In this document: positions 3,992-10,617 of the stretch, in pieces
How the letters are laid out: each line of letters opens with the position of its first letter
Numbering within the stretch: position 1 is the first letter of the stretch
Source: Candidatus Sumerlaeota bacterium
Lineage (GTDB): Bacteria > Sumerlaeota > Sumerlaeia > JAFGJS01
DNA length: 64,000 bases
Assembly: GCA_016928995.1 (NCBI GenBank)
Contig: JAFGJS010000037.1
Coordinates: 1-64,000 of the forward strand
Direction of reading: 5' to 3'
The notes under the pieces: model-generated
The model's input: only the letters and a program-made list of their open reading frames with translations
Database searches by the model: none
Told to the model about the DNA's origin: nothing
Translations under genes and position numbers: made by a program

Positions 3992-4768
3992 ATGTTGCGC
4001 AATTTGACATACGCCGCCATGGCGCTCGTATTGACGCTTGCTCCTTGTGCCTTGGCGCAGGAGGCGACAACGTCCACGGCTCAGCTGGATGAAGCGCCCA
4101 CGACGCCGCCGATGATCGCGCGTTATGATCCCGATGCGCTGGACTGGCTGAAAAAGATCGAAGAGAAGCACCAGACGATTCAGCGCGTGGTCGCGGAATT
4201 CGACCAGGTCAAGATGAACTCCTTGTTCCTTGAGGAAATCCGCTCGATCGGGATCTTGCGCTACATCAAGCCCGACCGGCTGATGATCGTGTATAATCCG
4301 CCGGAAAAAATCAGCGAGTTGGACCGCGAGGATAATCCGGTGCTGTATAATTATTTGATCGGCGACGTCTTTTGGGTTTACAATCCGTCGATCAAGCAGG
4401 CGGACAAGTTTTATCTCAAGCATGAAGACGACGAGCAGCGGCGCATCAATGAAATGCTGATCGGCTTCGGCGCGTCCGTGGAGCAGCTCAAGGCGCACTT
4501 TCGCATCGCGATCTTGCCGGTCGCGCCGGATGGAGCGGCCGGGATCCGGTTCGTTCCGCTGCCGGAGAACGAAGACCGCCTGTTTAAAAGCATGGAACTC
4601 TACATCTCCAAAAAAGAGCTGCGGCCGTTGATGTTTCATTTTGTTGACAGTCAAAGCGACGATGAAACGACCGTGACGATCAAAAATGTGCTGTGGAACG
4701 TCGAAGTGGACGAGAAGCTGTTTGAGCTGGATTTTCCGCGCGACGTGGAGATAATAGAGCGCAATTAA
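3992..4768 (+). CDS. LolA-like outer-membrane lipoprotein carrier
   Basis: A probable periplasmic chaperone of the LolA fold, which ferries lipoproteins from the inner to the outer membrane. The 258-residue product begins with a signal peptide (hydrophobic to about residue 18, cleavage near CALA-QE). It then has a low-complexity linker and the LolA-like core. Hallmarks are the VAEFDQ strand followed by IGILRYIKPDRLMIVYNPPE, the G-x-L-x-x-x-x-P-x-R pattern of the family. GGAG lies 5 bases before the ATG at 3992. The next gene is an LptE-like lipoprotein, so the pair looks like an outer-membrane biogenesis module. No lolCDE is nearby. Similarity is judged by motif only; a DUF4292/LolA-superfamily relative is possible. 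Confidence 0.75.
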   Translation: MLRNLTYAAMALVLTLAPCALAQEATTSTAQLDEAPTTPPMIARYDPDALDWLKKIEEKHQTIQRVVAEFDQVKMNSLFLEEIRSIGILRYIKPDRLMIVYNPPEKISELDREDNPVLYNYLIGDVFWVYNPSIKQADKFYLKHEDDEQRRINEMLIGFGASVEQLKAHFRIAILPVAPDGAAGIRFVPLPENEDRLFKSMELYISKKELRPLMFHFVDSQSDDETTVTIKNVLWNVEVDEKLFELDFPRDVEIIERN

Positions 4769-4843: not shown

Positions 4844-4880
4844 TGGATTGAGATTAAGAGTAAGATTAGGATTAAGAACG
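4844..4880 (+). repeat. GATTAAG/GATTAGG hexamer repeat before the LptE-like gene
   Basis: The stretch reads as GATTAA, GAGTAA, GATTAG and GATTAA in 6-base steps. It ends 15 bases before the start codon at 4896, just ahead of the AAAAGGA ribosome site. The same words occur in the same orientation relative to the gene at 33874-33902 and, on the minus strand, at 14866-14894. Confidence 0.75.
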
Positions 4881-4895
4881 ATAAAAGGACGCCCC

Positions 4896-5519
4896 ATGAA
4901 TAATCCTTCCCTCCGCCGATGCATGCCCCTGGCCTGCGGGTTGACGCTGCTGATCGCCACGACGCTGCAAACCGGATGCGTGCGGATTCCATATTCACGC
5001 CAACTGCCCGACGCGATCCGTTCGGTGTATGTCCCCATGGCGCAAAACGAGACCGCTGAGCCGGGATTGGAAGAGCAGCTGACCACGCAGATGCAGGAGG
5101 AGCTCCTGCGCGACGGCCGGCTGCAGGTGCGCAATCGCGGCGGCGCGGACATGACGCTGCACGTTGTCGTCAAAAATTGGGATACGCGCAGCGAGGCCTT
5201 CCACAACGATGAATTCGCGGTCAGCACGCGCGTGGAGATCAAGGGCGCGGCTTACCTGTATAATCCCGAGGACCGGCTGCGGGAAAACCCGGTGATGTCA
5301 TGGTCGGAGATCGCGTACGACACGACATATCCCAGCGATGCGCGTTTTTCACAAGCGACGCTCGATGTGGACGGCAAACGCCGCGTGCTGGAGGGCTTCG
5401 CCCGGGAGGTTGTGCTTGCCGTGTTGAGTCAAGCCACGGATGAAGCCATCGAGCGCGAAAAGCAAAAGGCGGAAGGCGCGCTCGAAGCGCAAGTCAGTCC
5501 GAATCCGCCGCAACTTTAA
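4896..5519 (+). CDS. LptE-like LPS-assembly lipoprotein
   Basis: A 207-residue probable outer-membrane lipoprotein of the LptE superfamily. LptE plugs the LptD barrel that inserts lipopolysaccharide into the outer leaflet. The start at 4896 follows AAAAGGA; the in-frame extension to 4848 merely translates an upstream repeat. The signal peptide ends at a lipobox-like LQTGC with Cys28 as the expected lipidated residue. The core matches the family pattern: a strand (IRSVYVPMAQN), then EPGLEEQLTTQMQEELLRDG, then RLQVRNRGGADMTLHVVV. The C-terminal helix is Lys/Glu-rich and ends in a short tail. LptD is not in the window. The placement next to a LolA-like gene and the heptosyltransferase at 33.9 kb fit an LPS-bearing outer membrane. 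Confidence 0.75.
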   Translation: MNNPSLRRCMPLACGLTLLIATTLQTGCVRIPYSRQLPDAIRSVYVPMAQNETAEPGLEEQLTTQMQEELLRDGRLQVRNRGGADMTLHVVVKNWDTRSEAFHNDEFAVSTRVEIKGAAYLYNPEDRLRENPVMSWSEIAYDTTYPSDARFSQATLDVDGKRRVLEGFAREVVLAVLSQATDEAIEREKQKAEGALEAQVSPNPPQL

Positions 5520-5612
5520 ACTGCCGCCGCCGGAGCTTTTGCCCGGCCGATGATCGCATCCCCATGCTCCCGCGCGGATCCGCCGGCGGACGTCATCCCA
5601 AGGAACGCCCGC

Positions 5613-7679
5613 ATGCTCCGCTGGCTCAAGCACAATCACCTTCTGCTCATCACCACGCTGATGTTTCTCGGCAGCACGGCGTTGATCCTGTATTGGCTGG
5701 ACATCTCCATTTATCAGCCGAAGAAAAAAAGCATCATCATCGACCAGAACCTGTACTCGAACCTCAACTCCAACGACACCACAACGATCACCAAAATGGC
5801 CGGCAGCCTGATCTATTACACGCCTCGCGATCCTGAGAATGAGAATCAGGTGAAAAAGTACAATGAGGTCAAGGCGCAGGTGGCTCAGACTTACCATGCA
5901 ATCATCGCCAGCGACGACAACCTTTTTTACAACATCATCGTGCAGAACGAGAAATTGGAGATCATCTACAAGTTTGGCGAGCAAGAACTGCAGGAGATGA
6001 AGAAGACCGCAGGCGAAGAATACCTGCTGAAAACTCAACGCTTTAATACATATAAAAACTGTCTTTTCCTGCGAGGCTTCGAAGGCGTTTCAGGCGGCTA
6101 CATCGAGGACGGCAACGGCAATAAGCTGGGCCGTACGAGAATTTACTACACCACGCCGCCGAGCGAGGAATCGATCGAACTGCTCACGGAAAAATTCCGT
6201 TGGATCAGTTTGGGGATCGTGACGGGAATCGGATTGATTTATTTCTATCTGGTTTGGTTTCTCTTTCTGCCCGTGAAGCGCGTCGCCTCGCGCGTCGACG
6301 AAGTGCAGCAGCGCAATCCGCGCATCCTGCCCCGGCCCAAGTCGCTGCTGGAACGGCAATACAACACGCTCGCGCGCGATTCGCTGATGACGGCGATCAG
6401 CACTAGCCATGCGCAGTTGCTGTCGCAGAGTCGTCTGCCGGATCTGCAGGAGATGTTCAGTCAAATCGACCGGCTTATCATGCGCCATCTGCTGTTGGAA
6501 TCCATCGCTTTTTTCTCGGTGGAGCTCTCCGCCAGGAAAGCGCCGGTCAACTTCCAGCAAGTCACTCCGCCGGAAAGCGAACTCGACTTTATTGTGCAGT
6601 ATAAAATCGACCGCAAGCGTCGCGAGCAGATCGTGGAGGAATGCCTGAAGAGCGCGTCGTCCGGCGACAACAAATCCTTCCGCGCCTTTTTCGTTCCCGG
6701 ACGCTCCAACATTATCGCCGGATTGATCCGCATGCATCGCGGCCAGCGTTATTTCGAACTGGCGTTGTGCTGTTTGCCCCGGCGCATCAGCGGCGAAATG
6801 CGGAACTGGCTGCTCGAATCGCTGGCGCAGATCTGCCAGAACATTCATGGCGGCTTGCGTGTGCTGGAGGCGCAGAAGAATTTAATCTTTACGGAAAAAC
6901 GTCAGGCCAACATCAACCTTTCCCGGCAACTGGGGCATGACCTGACCAACGTGATCGCCACCAGCAAACTGGACCTGACCACGACGCGCATGTTTCTCAA
7001 GACTCCGGAAATGCAGAGCCTGGAATCGCCGCGCTTTATGATGTTCAAAAAGTCGATCGAGCATTTGGAAAACAACACGCGGTTTTTGCAGGAAATCGTC
7101 AATATTTACCGCGCCTTCTCTTACATCAAGCATCCGCGCTATGAAGAGGTGCAGCTGAATGAACTGCTGGAGAACATCTGCCAGATTTTCCGGCTGTCCA
7201 CCTCGCAGCGCTTCACCATCAACACCCGCTTCGATTCCGGCATGCCGCGCTGCAACCTGGAGGTGCGGCTGATCAAACTGGCGGTTTTCAACATCCTGAA
7301 CAATGCCGTGGAGGCGCTGAAACGAAAGGAGGATCAACAGTCCGAGGAGGCGATCACCGTGGAGACGCGGCATAAAACCGAAACCAAGGAAGCGGCCGTG
7401 CTGATCAGCGACACCGGTCCCGGCATTCGAGACGCCGCGGGAAACTTGTTGCAACCGGACGATTTGGAAAATATATTTGAACTAGGCGTTACAACCAAAG
7501 CGGAAGATACGCCGGGCGAAGGTCTCGGATTGAATTGGGTGAAGACCATCGTAATGGATTTTCACAAGGGTTCCATCCAGGCTCATAATCTGGACCGCGG
7601 CGGCGCGATGCTGCAAATCACGCTTTCCACGCAGCTGCCCGCGGGAGACTATCCCCAGCGCGAAGCCGCGACGAAATGA
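5613..7679 (+). CDS. Membrane sensor histidine kinase
   Basis: A 688-residue two-component sensor. The start at 5613 follows AAGGA by 8 bases; an earlier in-frame ATG at 5550 lacks a site. Layout: membrane helix at about residues 9-29, an extracytoplasmic domain of about 165 residues, a second helix at about 197-221 (WISLGIVTGIGLIYFYLVWF), a cytoplasmic region, then the kinase core. The phospho-acceptor is His442 in RQLGHDLTN. The N box reads NILNNAVEAL, G1 is DTGPGI and G2 is GEGLGLNW. The extracytoplasmic part is not a sensor domain I recognise. The response-regulator gene follows after 18 bases, so the two form an operon. The G boxes are intact, so the kinase should be active. Confidence 0.9.
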   Translation: MLRWLKHNHLLLITTLMFLGSTALILYWLDISIYQPKKKSIIIDQNLYSNLNSNDTTTITKMAGSLIYYTPRDPENENQVKKYNEVKAQVAQTYHAIIASDDNLFYNIIVQNEKLEIIYKFGEQELQEMKKTAGEEYLLKTQRFNTYKNCLFLRGFEGVSGGYIEDGNGNKLGRTRIYYTTPPSEESIELLTEKFRWISLGIVTGIGLIYFYLVWFLFLPVKRVASRVDEVQQRNPRILPRPKSLLERQYNTLARDSLMTAISTSHAQLLSQSRLPDLQEMFSQIDRLIMRHLLLESIAFFSVELSARKAPVNFQQVTPPESELDFIVQYKIDRKRREQIVEECLKSASSGDNKSFRAFFVPGRSNIIAGLIRMHRGQRYFELALCCLPRRISGEMRNWLLESLAQICQNIHGGLRVLEAQKNLIFTEKRQANINLSRQLGHDLTNVIATSKLDLTTTRMFLKTPEMQSLESPRFMMFKKSIEHLENNTRFLQEIVNIYRAFSYIKHPRYEEVQLNELLENICQIFRLSTSQRFTINTRFDSGMPRCNLEVRLIKLAVFNILNNAVEALKRKEDQQSEEAITVETRHKTETKEAAVLISDTGPGIRDAAGNLLQPDDLENIFELGVTTKAEDTPGEGLGLNWVKTIVMDFHKGSIQAHNLDRGGAMLQITLSTQLPAGDYPQREAATK

Positions 7680-7697: not shown

Positions 7698-8987
7698 ATG
7701 TCCAACAACGACATTCCCGTGCTCATCGTGGATGACAATCAAAGCTACCGTGAAGCCTTCACGCGCAACCTGGCGATGATGGAATTCGACGTCAAGGAGG
7801 CCGATAACAGCGAGGAGGCGCTGCGTATTCTGGATGACCAGGGTCCGATGGTCGTGGTCACCGACCTGCAGATGCGCACGGAGACCGAAGGGCTGGATTT
7901 GATCAAGACCGCGCGCGATCGTTTCCCGCTGCTGCCGATGATCATGATTTCCGCCGTCGGCACGTTCGAGGAAGGCGCGCTCGCTCAGAAGCTCGGCGCG
8001 GATCACGTGATCCACAAGAGCACCATCGAAGACGAGATCGAAACGCTTTATGAGCGCATCAAGCAATCATACCAGGCTTTTGTGAAAAACGACCGTCTGC
8101 TGGCGCGAATTAATGAACTGCGCGGCAAGGAGGCGCTGACTCCGGAGGACGACGCGGAGCTGGTGGAGATCATGCTGCGCCCGGATATCGACTCGCTGGT
8201 CAAAGGCGAGGCTTACGATCTGCGCACGTCGCAGCAAAGCACGCAACTGCTTTCCAGCACCGAGAAAGACGTGCGGCAGGCGATGGGGGAGGGGGAGAGC
8301 GTCGTCACTTCGCTGGCTGAAATCGACAAGTTGTTGCTGGAGGAACTTCCGCATTACGAAAGTTTGGAGCAGGAATCGAAAAATCAGATTCAATCGGCGG
8401 AGTTTCTCTACCAGCAGCAAGTGCGCGGCAAGGGGGCCTATGACTTCAGCCGCAGCATCGGCTTTTCCTTCTGCTTCGCCGTGGAGAACGAGGTGAAATC
8501 GACGCTGAAGCGGAAAATCCACCGTTTCCTGAGCCATGACGACACGTATCAGCTGATCGAAAAACTGCTCGACGACAAGCGCAAGAACCTGGACATCTTT
8601 TTCCATCAGTACCTGCTGCAAACGGCGCTGAACAACAATGAGATGGAAATCACCACGGAGAACGTGAAGCAGACCTTGCAGCGGATCCTGCAGCACCAGG
8701 TGCGCTACAAACCCGACGGCCTGAAGGCCGTGGGCATCATGCTGATCTGCTTCGGGCAGGAATATAACCTGCGCGTGATGCGCGGCGCGGTCAAGGTGGA
8801 GAATCCGCTCGGAATGAAATTCGCCGACGGCAGCGACAGCACCGTGGAGGCGCTCGCCGAGAAGCTCATTGCGCTGCAGCACTTCCGCAATCCGTACATC
8901 CACCCGGAAATCTCCGACATGCAGAACATCTCCAAAGTGCGCGATTGCGCCTTCGACTGCCTGAAGGTGATTAAAGACATCATCTGA
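7698..8987 (+). CDS. Response regulator with HEPN-like helical output region
   Basis: A 429-residue protein with an N-terminal receiver domain (residues 1-120). It has acidic pocket Asp12/Asp13, phospho-acceptor Asp56 (VVVTDLQM), Ser85 and Lys107 (VIHKS). No DNA-binding, GGDEF, EAL or HD-GYP domain follows. Residues 120-240 are helical and charged. Residues 240-429 form an all-helical region (IQSAEFLYQQ, DFSRSIGFSFCFAVENEVKS) ending in FRNPYIHPE. That end has the R-x4-H spacing (Arg397, His402) typical of HEPN-fold proteins. HEPN domains are often RNases or binding modules; the assignment here is inference from one motif and the helical character. It lies directly downstream of its probable kinase. 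Confidence 0.85.
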   Translation: MSNNDIPVLIVDDNQSYREAFTRNLAMMEFDVKEADNSEEALRILDDQGPMVVVTDLQMRTETEGLDLIKTARDRFPLLPMIMISAVGTFEEGALAQKLGADHVIHKSTIEDEIETLYERIKQSYQAFVKNDRLLARINELRGKEALTPEDDAELVEIMLRPDIDSLVKGEAYDLRTSQQSTQLLSSTEKDVRQAMGEGESVVTSLAEIDKLLLEELPHYESLEQESKNQIQSAEFLYQQQVRGKGAYDFSRSIGFSFCFAVENEVKSTLKRKIHRFLSHDDTYQLIEKLLDDKRKNLDIFFHQYLLQTALNNNEMEITTENVKQTLQRILQHQVRYKPDGLKAVGIMLICFGQEYNLRVMRGAVKVENPLGMKFADGSDSTVEALAEKLIALQHFRNPYIHPEISDMQNISKVRDCAFDCLKVIKDII

Positions 8988-9077: not shown

Positions 9078-9596
9078 ATGAAGCAAATTGTCAAAACAGA
9101 AGACATTGCACCGATGATCCACTGGATTCGTCAGGAGAAGGTCATGCTTGATCGTGATCTTGCTGACTTATATGGGGTTGAAACACGGACGTTAAAGCAG
9201 GCTGTTCGCCGTAATTTGGATCGGTTCCCCGAAGATTTCATGTTCAAACTCGAGGATTCCGAAGTTGAAGCTCTGGTGTCACAAAATGTGATACCTTCCA
9301 AAGGCATCTTCGGCGGCGCCGTGCCGATGGCATTCACTGAACAGGGCGTTGCCATGCTTTCCAGCGTGCTACGCAGCAAGCGCGCCACGGAAGTCAACAT
9401 TGCCATCATGCGAACATTCGTTCAACTCCGGCGCCTGATGGACAGCAATCGGGAATTGGCGAAAAAAATCAATCAATTAGAGAAAAAATACGATGAACAA
9501 TTTTCGTTAGTCTTCCAGGCGATCAAACAACTTTTAGCCGAAGACGAAGCGCGAAAACAGAAACCAAAGCGACGAATCGGTTTCAACCAGGAATGA
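9078..9596 (+). CDS. ORF6N-domain DNA-binding protein
   Basis: A 172-residue protein with an N-terminal ORF6N domain. This is seen in the opening helix-strand pattern (IRQEKVMLDRDLADLYGVET), then TLKQAVRRNLDRFPEDFMF, then AFTEQGVAMLSSVL. ORF6N/KilA-N proteins are usually phage or mobile-element regulators that bind DNA. The C-terminal third is a coiled coil (ELAKKINQLEKKYDEQ) with a basic tail. No phage gene or repressor lies next to it, so it may be a relic of a lost element or a domesticated regulator. Base composition is lower in GC than its neighbours. The ribosome site is weak. Confidence 0.85.
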   Translation: MKQIVKTEDIAPMIHWIRQEKVMLDRDLADLYGVETRTLKQAVRRNLDRFPEDFMFKLEDSEVEALVSQNVIPSKGIFGGAVPMAFTEQGVAMLSSVLRSKRATEVNIAIMRTFVQLRRLMDSNRELAKKINQLEKKYDEQFSLVFQAIKQLLAEDEARKQKPKRRIGFNQE

Positions 9597-9718: not shown

Positions 9719-10018
9719 TCAATCGGTTGATTGGGCGTCGCCGGTCTTGGCGTCTTCTTCGCGCAAGGCGGCTTGGAGCTGGGCGCGGAGTTGCTCTTTG
9801 AATTCCGGCGAGAGGCGCTGTTCTGAGGGGGGATCGAACGATTGGACCGCCTCCATGTAACGCGCCACGAGCATTGCGAGCTGATTCGTCTGGTTCTCGT
9901 ATCGCCGGCATAGCAAGCATTGGCGCGAGTGAAACCACAATGCGATGCGCTGGAACAGCGACAGTTTACGATCTAAAGCCTGCGAAACGAGTTCCGCGGC
10001 CTGTTTGCAATTCATCAT
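9719..10018 (-). CDS. Zinc-finger anti-sigma factor
   Basis: A 99-residue soluble protein with the ZAS signature H-x3-C-x2-C (HSRQCLLC) after an N-terminal MNCKQAAELVSQALD helix. This is the zinc-binding anti-sigma fold that sequesters ECF sigma factors and often responds to thiol stress. There is no transmembrane helix, so it would act in the cytoplasm. The ATG overlaps the stop of the sigma-factor gene (10015-10018), implying translational coupling and balanced synthesis. The C-terminal third is a Gln/Glu-rich helix. Confidence 0.85.
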   Translation of the reverse strand: MMNCKQAAELVSQALDRKLSLFQRIALWFHSRQCLLCRRYENQTNQLAMLVARYMEAVQSFDPPSEQRLSPEFKEQLRAQLQAALREEDAKTGDAQSTD

Positions 10019-10617
10019 TGCCCTTCGTCCCCTTCATGACCAAACCAGTTCTGCTCCAGGCACCCCCGCAGGCGCGCGCGGGACCGGTGCAGCATCACCC
10101 ATAAATTGGTAGGAGTCACATCCAGAACCTTACAAATCTCTTCTGTTTTCATGCCGTCGATCATTCGCAGGCTGAAGGCCTGGCTCAGGCGCTCCGGCAG
10201 CTTGCCAAGGCAGCGGTCCAGCTGCTCCCAGAACTGCTTGCGCTCCATCAGCTCCGCTGGATTCGCGTTCCACTCCGCTGGGGCGAATTCGTCTTTCCAG
10301 TGGCCCCTCTGGTCGAAGAGGAAATCCACATCCTGCTCATCGCTTTCAAACTCGCTGGCCGGACGTTCGCGTTGTGCTTTGCGGATGTAATCCACGATTT
10401 TATGCTTCATGATGCCCGTGAGCCAGGTGCGCTCGGTGGATTTGCCGGAGAAATTGTCGCGGGCGCGGATGGCCGCGAGCAGCGTCTCCTGCACGATGTC
10501 CTGCGCCGTTTCCTCGTTGCGCAGGCGCGACATCGCAAAGCGGAAAAGATAATCGCCGTGCTGATCGATCCAGGTTTCCGGATCGGATATATTTGATTTT
10601 GTTGTTGGCCCCGTCAT
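10015..10617 (-). CDS. ECF-type RNA polymerase sigma factor
   Basis: A 200-residue sigma-70 family factor with only regions 2 and 4. Region 2 spans about residues 18-90: YLFRFAMSRLRNEETAQDIV, then the -10 recognition helix TERTWLTGIMKHKIVDYIRK. Region 4 spans about 135-185: LGKLPERLSQAFSLRMIDG, then the helix-turn-helix TEEICKVLDVTPTNLWVMLH. It resembles the family in which the sigma gene is followed by a small zf-HC2 protein, and that arrangement is seen here with a 4-base overlap. It would direct transcription of a stress regulon. Its own target promoter is not identifiable in the window. Confidence 0.92.
   Translation of the reverse strand: MTGPTTKSNISDPETWIDQHGDYLFRFAMSRLRNEETAQDIVQETLLAAIRARDNFSGKSTERTWLTGIMKHKIVDYIRKAQRERPASEFESDEQDVDFLFDQRGHWKDEFAPAEWNANPAELMERKQFWEQLDRCLGKLPERLSQAFSLRMIDGMKTEEICKVLDVTPTNLWVMLHRSRARLRGCLEQNWFGHEGDEGQ

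Follow-up and report, generated by a model that had tools for sequence, protein, structure and literature searches.

A two-component regulator with a HEPN-like output domain in Sumerlaeota and two further bacterial phyla

Introduction

Most response regulators of bacterial two-component systems are transcription factors, enzymes that handle second messengers, or switches that bind proteins. Among those with enzymatic or protein-binding outputs (PorX, RssB, CheB, and the GGDEF/EAL regulators), we know of none whose output is a HEPN domain, and the RNA-directed outputs known to us, those of the ANTAR class, are all RNA-binding. HEPN domains, whose fold is familiar chiefly from RNA-cleaving enzymes, are mostly seen in defense and toxin systems. 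The main text of a survey of HEPN proteins (Anantharaman et al. 2013, PMC3710099) describes their hallmark as R-x4-6-H with a polar residue (N, D, or H) after the arginine, accompanied by a second signature, E-x3-[KR], and, in canonical domains, by an insertion that separates helix 2 from helix 3; that main text mentions no fusion of a HEPN domain to a receiver. In Csm6 (PMC10702470), the HEPN dimer interface is where switching takes place, a Rossmann-like sensor acting on it by way of a helical linker. Our search of the open-access literature found no published receiver-HEPN response regulator.

Here, we analyze a gene pair within a 64,000-nucleotide stretch of a Candidatus Sumerlaeota genome (assembly GCA_016928995.1, contig JAFGJS010000037.1, positions 1 to 64,000 of the forward strand; hereafter, the window), in which an earlier note had proposed a response regulator with a HEPN-like output region.

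The kinase-regulator gene pair

The regulator gene (positions 7698 to 8987, + strand) encodes 429 amino acids arranged as a receiver, a helical linker, and a HEPN-like output domain, and it has orthologues in three phyla. The receiver (residues 8 to 116, positions 7719 to 8045; Pfam PF00072 Response_reg, E 3e-17) had been described as intact on the basis of Asp56 and Lys107. Both residues are where they were said to be (the D56 codon occupies positions 7863 to 7865), and D12, D13, and S85 complete the phosphorylation site, all five residues being identical in 48/48 full-length regulators from the three phyla. The linker (residues 117 to 224, positions 8046 to 8369) is weakly conserved and is modeled by AlphaFold2 as helices spanning residues 107 to 142, 149 to 160, 166 to 196, and 201 to 216. 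In the whole 429-residue protein, Pfam recognizes the receiver only, which agrees with the earlier statements that the output is no known effector and that there is no DNA-binding domain, the best Pfam candidate for the latter being a weak match to an Mga HTH model (E 0.07). Searches of the regulator and its family alignment against Pfam and NCBIfam likewise returned receiver matches and no significant match for the output domain; neither database gave a significant match to an ANTAR or HTH output domain, and RssB-type models match the receiver only. A PADLOC match to SduA was rejected, as it spans residues 6 to 61, inside the receiver.

The partner of the regulator is a membrane histidine kinase (positions 5550 to 7679, + strand; Pfam HATPase_c, E 6e-12), whose gene ends 18 bases before the regulator gene, the gap given for it earlier. 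Two transmembrane segments (about residues 29 to 50 and 218 to 245) enclose an extracytoplasmic sensor of ~170 residues, and an H-box, GHDLTN, carries H463 and is followed by the HATPase domain. H463, D464, T466, and N467 are identical in 34/34 relatives; D-x-x-N after the histidine is the usual phosphatase motif. Members of this kinase family occur in 35/40 Sumerlaeota genomes and in 7/7 tested regulator-bearing genomes of the other two phyla. The family was found in 0/116 genomes of other phyla, nor was it found in two genomes that possess only the HEAT-type protein considered below. In several genomes, the kinase and regulator genes are unlinked, yet both are retained. This matched distribution, with both genes kept even when apart, argues for a dedicated signaling pair.

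The HEPN-like output domain

The output domain (residues 225 to 429, positions 8370 to 8984; profile family A2/A4) contains the string FRNPYIHPE, in which R397 and H402 have the R-x4-H spacing that the earlier note had pointed out (R397-N398-P-Y-I-H402, positions 8886 to 8903, between the last two helices). Upstream of it, E263-x3-K267 (positions 8484 to 8498) corresponds to the second HEPN signature, and a family-specific block, D340-G-L-K-A344 (positions 8715 to 8729), lies inside the predicted insertion that follows HEPN helix 2. Thirteen positions of the output domain are identical in 48/48 full-length proteins from the three phyla: E263, K267, D340, G341, L342, A344, Q394, R397, N398, P399, H402, P403, and E404 (with R397, N398, P399, H402, P403, and E404 identical in all 35 of the Sumerlaeota proteins). 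All three of the survey's traits are present: a polar residue after the arginine (N398), E263-x3-K267, and a predicted insertion, here the stretch from residue 281 to 375. Judged from these alignments, the R-x4-H motif is one of the most strongly conserved elements in the regulator family, as it is in the pattern by which the main text of the survey defines HEPN domains (PMC3710099).

Profile A2 also reaches a remote, receiver-less branch in a fourth phylum (E 1e-8 to 1e-4), which consists of proteins of ~700 to 970 residues with HEAT-like repeats and 15 to 22% identity to the window regulator. No receiver domain was recognized in the five of these proteins that were scanned. Their C-terminal domain is that of the regulator, ending in FRNRAAHEG, RNPAAHR, or similar, and E-x3-R is present in part of the branch. 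A joint alignment of the receiver-fused and receiver-less branches has eight invariant columns, namely, D340, G341, L342, A344, Q394, R397, N398, and H402. R397 and H402, whose conservation in homologues the earlier note had made a touchstone of its reading, are therefore kept in 48/48 proteins and in the remote branch as well. Because R397, N398, P399, H402, P403, and E404 are kept in all full-length proteins from three phyla, and the R, N, and H even in a branch of such low identity, the motif goes beyond chance.

Links to described HEPN families are fainter. The remote branch has seven weak matches in Pfam, among which three different HEPN models appear (LA2681, DUF4145, and RiboL-PSP). When small alignments of DUF4145 and RiboL-PSP were compared by hhalign, the R/N/H motif was aligned at negligible probability; a PDB sequence search with the profiles found nothing, and sequence profiles give the output domain no significant link to any named HEPN family. 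The HEAT-repeat HEPN-like proteins (L097:5321-7768, L117-L130, and L142) form a family that is patchy in one phylum and falls in no Pfam HEPN family. In another relative, from genome G275, a PUA-like domain is fused to one that carries FRNPAAH: this 405-residue protein (L141:4896-6113, - strand; PF24405, E 2e-6) has a HEPN-like C terminus and is a possible bridge between the output family of the regulator and the classical HEPN families. A weak profile match in genome G226 looked by eye like a terminase-like protein and was dropped.

We consider it fairly probable that the pair as a whole is a two-component system with a HEPN-superfamily output, in which an RNase site forms on phosphorylation. 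The kinase would sense an extracytoplasmic, probably envelope-related, signal and phosphorylate Asp56 of the receiver; phosphorylation would alter receiver dimerization or the packing of the receiver on the linker helices, and two HEPN domains would thus be positioned such that R397, N398, and H402 make up a metal-independent RNase site at their dimer interface. So activated, the regulator would act posttranscriptionally, cutting a set of RNAs. RNase activity of the output domain is itself reasonably likely. The proposed receiver-pairing switch is modeled on Csm6 (PMC10702470); we put activation through phosphorylation-driven dimerization at roughly even chances. P399, P403, E404, and the D340-G-L-K-A344 block, all conserved, are unusual features that could point to a function different from cleavage. 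Neither an RNA substrate nor an antitoxin was identified for the regulator in these analyses.

The main rival to a cleaving output is a noncutting HEPN-fold module, one that would bind RNA or a protein partner, with the binding switched by receiver phosphorylation and with R397 and H402 serving to hold the fold or to touch the ligand. Two observations speak for such a module: some HEPN families are noncatalytic binding modules (main text of PMC3710099), and the D340 block and the prolines flanking H402 are as strictly conserved as the R and H themselves. However, HEPN families that lack catalysis usually lose R-x4-H, according to the same text, and the motif is never lost in the 48 proteins or the remote branch. 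On this account, we regard a noncutting module as the less likely reading, possible but rather doubtful.

Predicted structure

AlphaFold2 models were built on six orthologues. For the full-length regulator, the mean pLDDT is 80; for residues 203 to 429, the pLDDT is 82 and the pTM is 0.81. As we read the secondary structure of the model, helices 225 to 243, 251 to 278, 381 to 396, and 407 to 425 would be HEPN helices 1 to 4, and R397-H402 would occupy the turn that joins helices 3 and 4. The final 190 residues, described earlier as all-helical, are mostly but not entirely so: a beta hairpin is modeled at residues 356 to 367. The model shows no different known fold; a different fold was the outcome that the earlier note had named as telling against a HEPN reading.

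Foldseek gave no significant match for the output model alone in the PDB or among viral models and only receiver-driven matches for the full-length model, PorX and RssB structures being among the latter. Structural realignment of the output model (VIA-align, 624 chains) placed HEPN domains among the best matches. The best of the 624 chains is the sacsin HEPN domain (Z 7.7, rmsd 3.5, 111 residues), tied with unrelated bundles; the Sulfolobus protein 2q00, which we take to be a HEPN protein, aligns over 114 of 122 residues (Z 7.4, rmsd 3.5), and Csm6 aligns over 131 residues (Z 7.0, rmsd 4.0). Vinculin-tail bundles (Z 7.3 to 7.6) are tied with the HEPN domains, as are catenin and GIT1, and Z-scores of 7 to 8 are indecisive for helical bundles.

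These ties, and the lack of significant output matches in both Foldseek and Pfam, leave room for a different helical-bundle interaction domain that bears R-x4-H by chance and acts on a protein target, in the manner of PorX or RssB; vinculin-tail bundles do match the output model as well as HEPN domains. We think this improbable, given that three HEPN features coincide in the one domain (R-N-x3-H, E-x3-K, and the predicted insertion after helix 2) and that its remote homologues bear canonical HEPN motifs. Because the structural Z-scores are tied with those of unrelated bundles, the HEPN assignment rests mainly on the motif, the second signature, the predicted topology, and the homologues. From sequence and model together, we conclude that the output domain very probably has the HEPN fold, an assignment that is well supported, short of proof. 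What stands of the earlier proposal is thus a HEPN-type output on a phosphorylatable regulator, supported by the invariant R-N-x3-H and E-x3-K, the helix layout, the structural matches, and the remote homologues.

Distribution and gene neighborhood

Profile A2 of the output domain was run on 386 genomes, and the phyla with hits were then searched whole. Among the 386, full-length receiver-fused relatives outside Sumerlaeota came from only four genomes. The output domain is present at one copy per genome in 35/40 Sumerlaeota (BRC1) genomes; the five genomes without the regulator are 58 to 81% complete, and all 29 genomes at least 82% complete carry it. The regulator is present in 14/14 genomes of a second phylum (with the match split over two frames in G397 and over two contigs in G388) and in 2/2 genomes of a third. 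The HMM search that the earlier note had recommended thus finds receiver-fused homologues in Sumerlaeota and two further phyla. By this distribution, the regulator is a core gene in the three phyla rather than a sporadic fusion. No relatives of the regulator were found in viral contigs, and none in plasmids. A gene that is universal and single-copy is more in keeping with an RNase that is regulated or specific than with a general toxin.

Upstream of the pair in the window are genes for a LolA-like lipoprotein carrier (positions 3992 to 4768, + strand; Pfam PF03548, E 6e-7) and an LptE-like LPS-assembly lipoprotein (positions 4848 to 5519, + strand; Pfam PF04390, E 4e-7), the latter 30 bases 5′ of the kinase gene. 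Both are conserved neighbors, the order being LolA, LptE, kinase, regulator in the window and at 14 more Sumerlaeota loci. Elsewhere, the kinase and regulator genes form a pair by themselves or lie apart. Linkage of LolA and LptE with the pair is absent in the other phyla. These LPS- and lipoprotein-transport neighbors suggest, as a hint only, an envelope signal for the kinase.

On the other side, 90 bases 3′ of the regulator gene, is an ORF6N-domain gene (positions 9078 to 9596, + strand; PF10543, E 8e-32), which was not found beside regulator orthologues; the ORF6N domain occurs in phages and mobile elements. Convergent with it is a gene pair comprising a sigma-70-family-like factor gene (positions 10015 to 10617, - strand) and an overlapping small gene (positions 9719 to 10018, - strand), whose product resembles a zinc-type anti-sigma factor. 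In one third-phylum genome, a small gene that is HU/IHF-like by eye (L093:7902-8201) lies directly 3′ of the regulator. An MNT-HEPN toxin-antitoxin system (AMPylated at Rx4HxY) was considered and rejected: E404 occupies the tyrosine position in 48/48 proteins, and the regulator's neighbors are the kinase, LptE, LolA, and ORF6N genes, with no MNT gene among them.

Defense genes are normally patchy. Although most HEPN RNases of known role are defense or toxin-antitoxin effectors (main text of PMC3710099), it is highly doubtful that this one is a HEPN RNase for phage defense or growth arrest, with a kinase that detects infection or damage to the envelope. Near-complete genomes of the three phyla all carry the gene, in single copy; it sits beside LolA and LptE genes, and searches of viral contigs and plasmids did not find it.

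The fullest form of the reading that we favor, to which we give about the same credence as its opposite, is that a phosphorylation-switched HEPN endoribonuclease is the direct output of the system, in a core, nondefense regulator of three phyla that possibly couples envelope state to RNA turnover. If this is true, direct RNA cleavage joins the bacterial ways of turning a membrane signal into a response, and a HEPN domain is placed in housekeeping regulation.

Comparison with known systems

With the HEPN RNases covered in the main text of the survey (Csm6/Csx1, RNase LS, and RloC/PrrC; PMC3710099), the regulator shares R-x4-H with N after the R, E-x3-[KR], and, as predicted from its model, a helical bundle interrupted by an insertion after helix 2; with CARF-HEPN Csm6 in particular, it would share the layout of Rossmann-like sensor, helical linker, and HEPN domain. 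It differs from the HEPN RNases in that its sensor is a phospho-receiver with a histidine kinase of its own, and in that its insertion contains a strictly conserved D340-G-L-K-A344 and a beta hairpin. It is also, unlike the known HEPN RNases, a core gene that is not defense linked, and profile searches connect it significantly with none of the named HEPN families. The HEAT-repeat and PUA-like proteins (L097, L117-L130, L142, and L141) have a homologous output domain with R-N-x3-H, and D-G-L-[KR]-A is common to the HEAT proteins and the regulator; in contrast to the latter, both kinds have no recognized receiver and no cognate kinase and carry instead a long HEAT-repeat or a PUA-like N-terminal part.

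Among two-component systems, the ANTAR regulators (NasT and EutV) likewise direct their output at RNA instead of DNA, but ANTAR is of unrelated fold and binds RNA as an antiterminator, whereas cleavage is predicted for the regulator described here. PorX, RssB, CheB, and the GGDEF/EAL regulators likewise combine a receiver with an effector that does not bind DNA. Receiver and HEPN domain are thus both of known kinds, and it is their combination that would be new and surprising.
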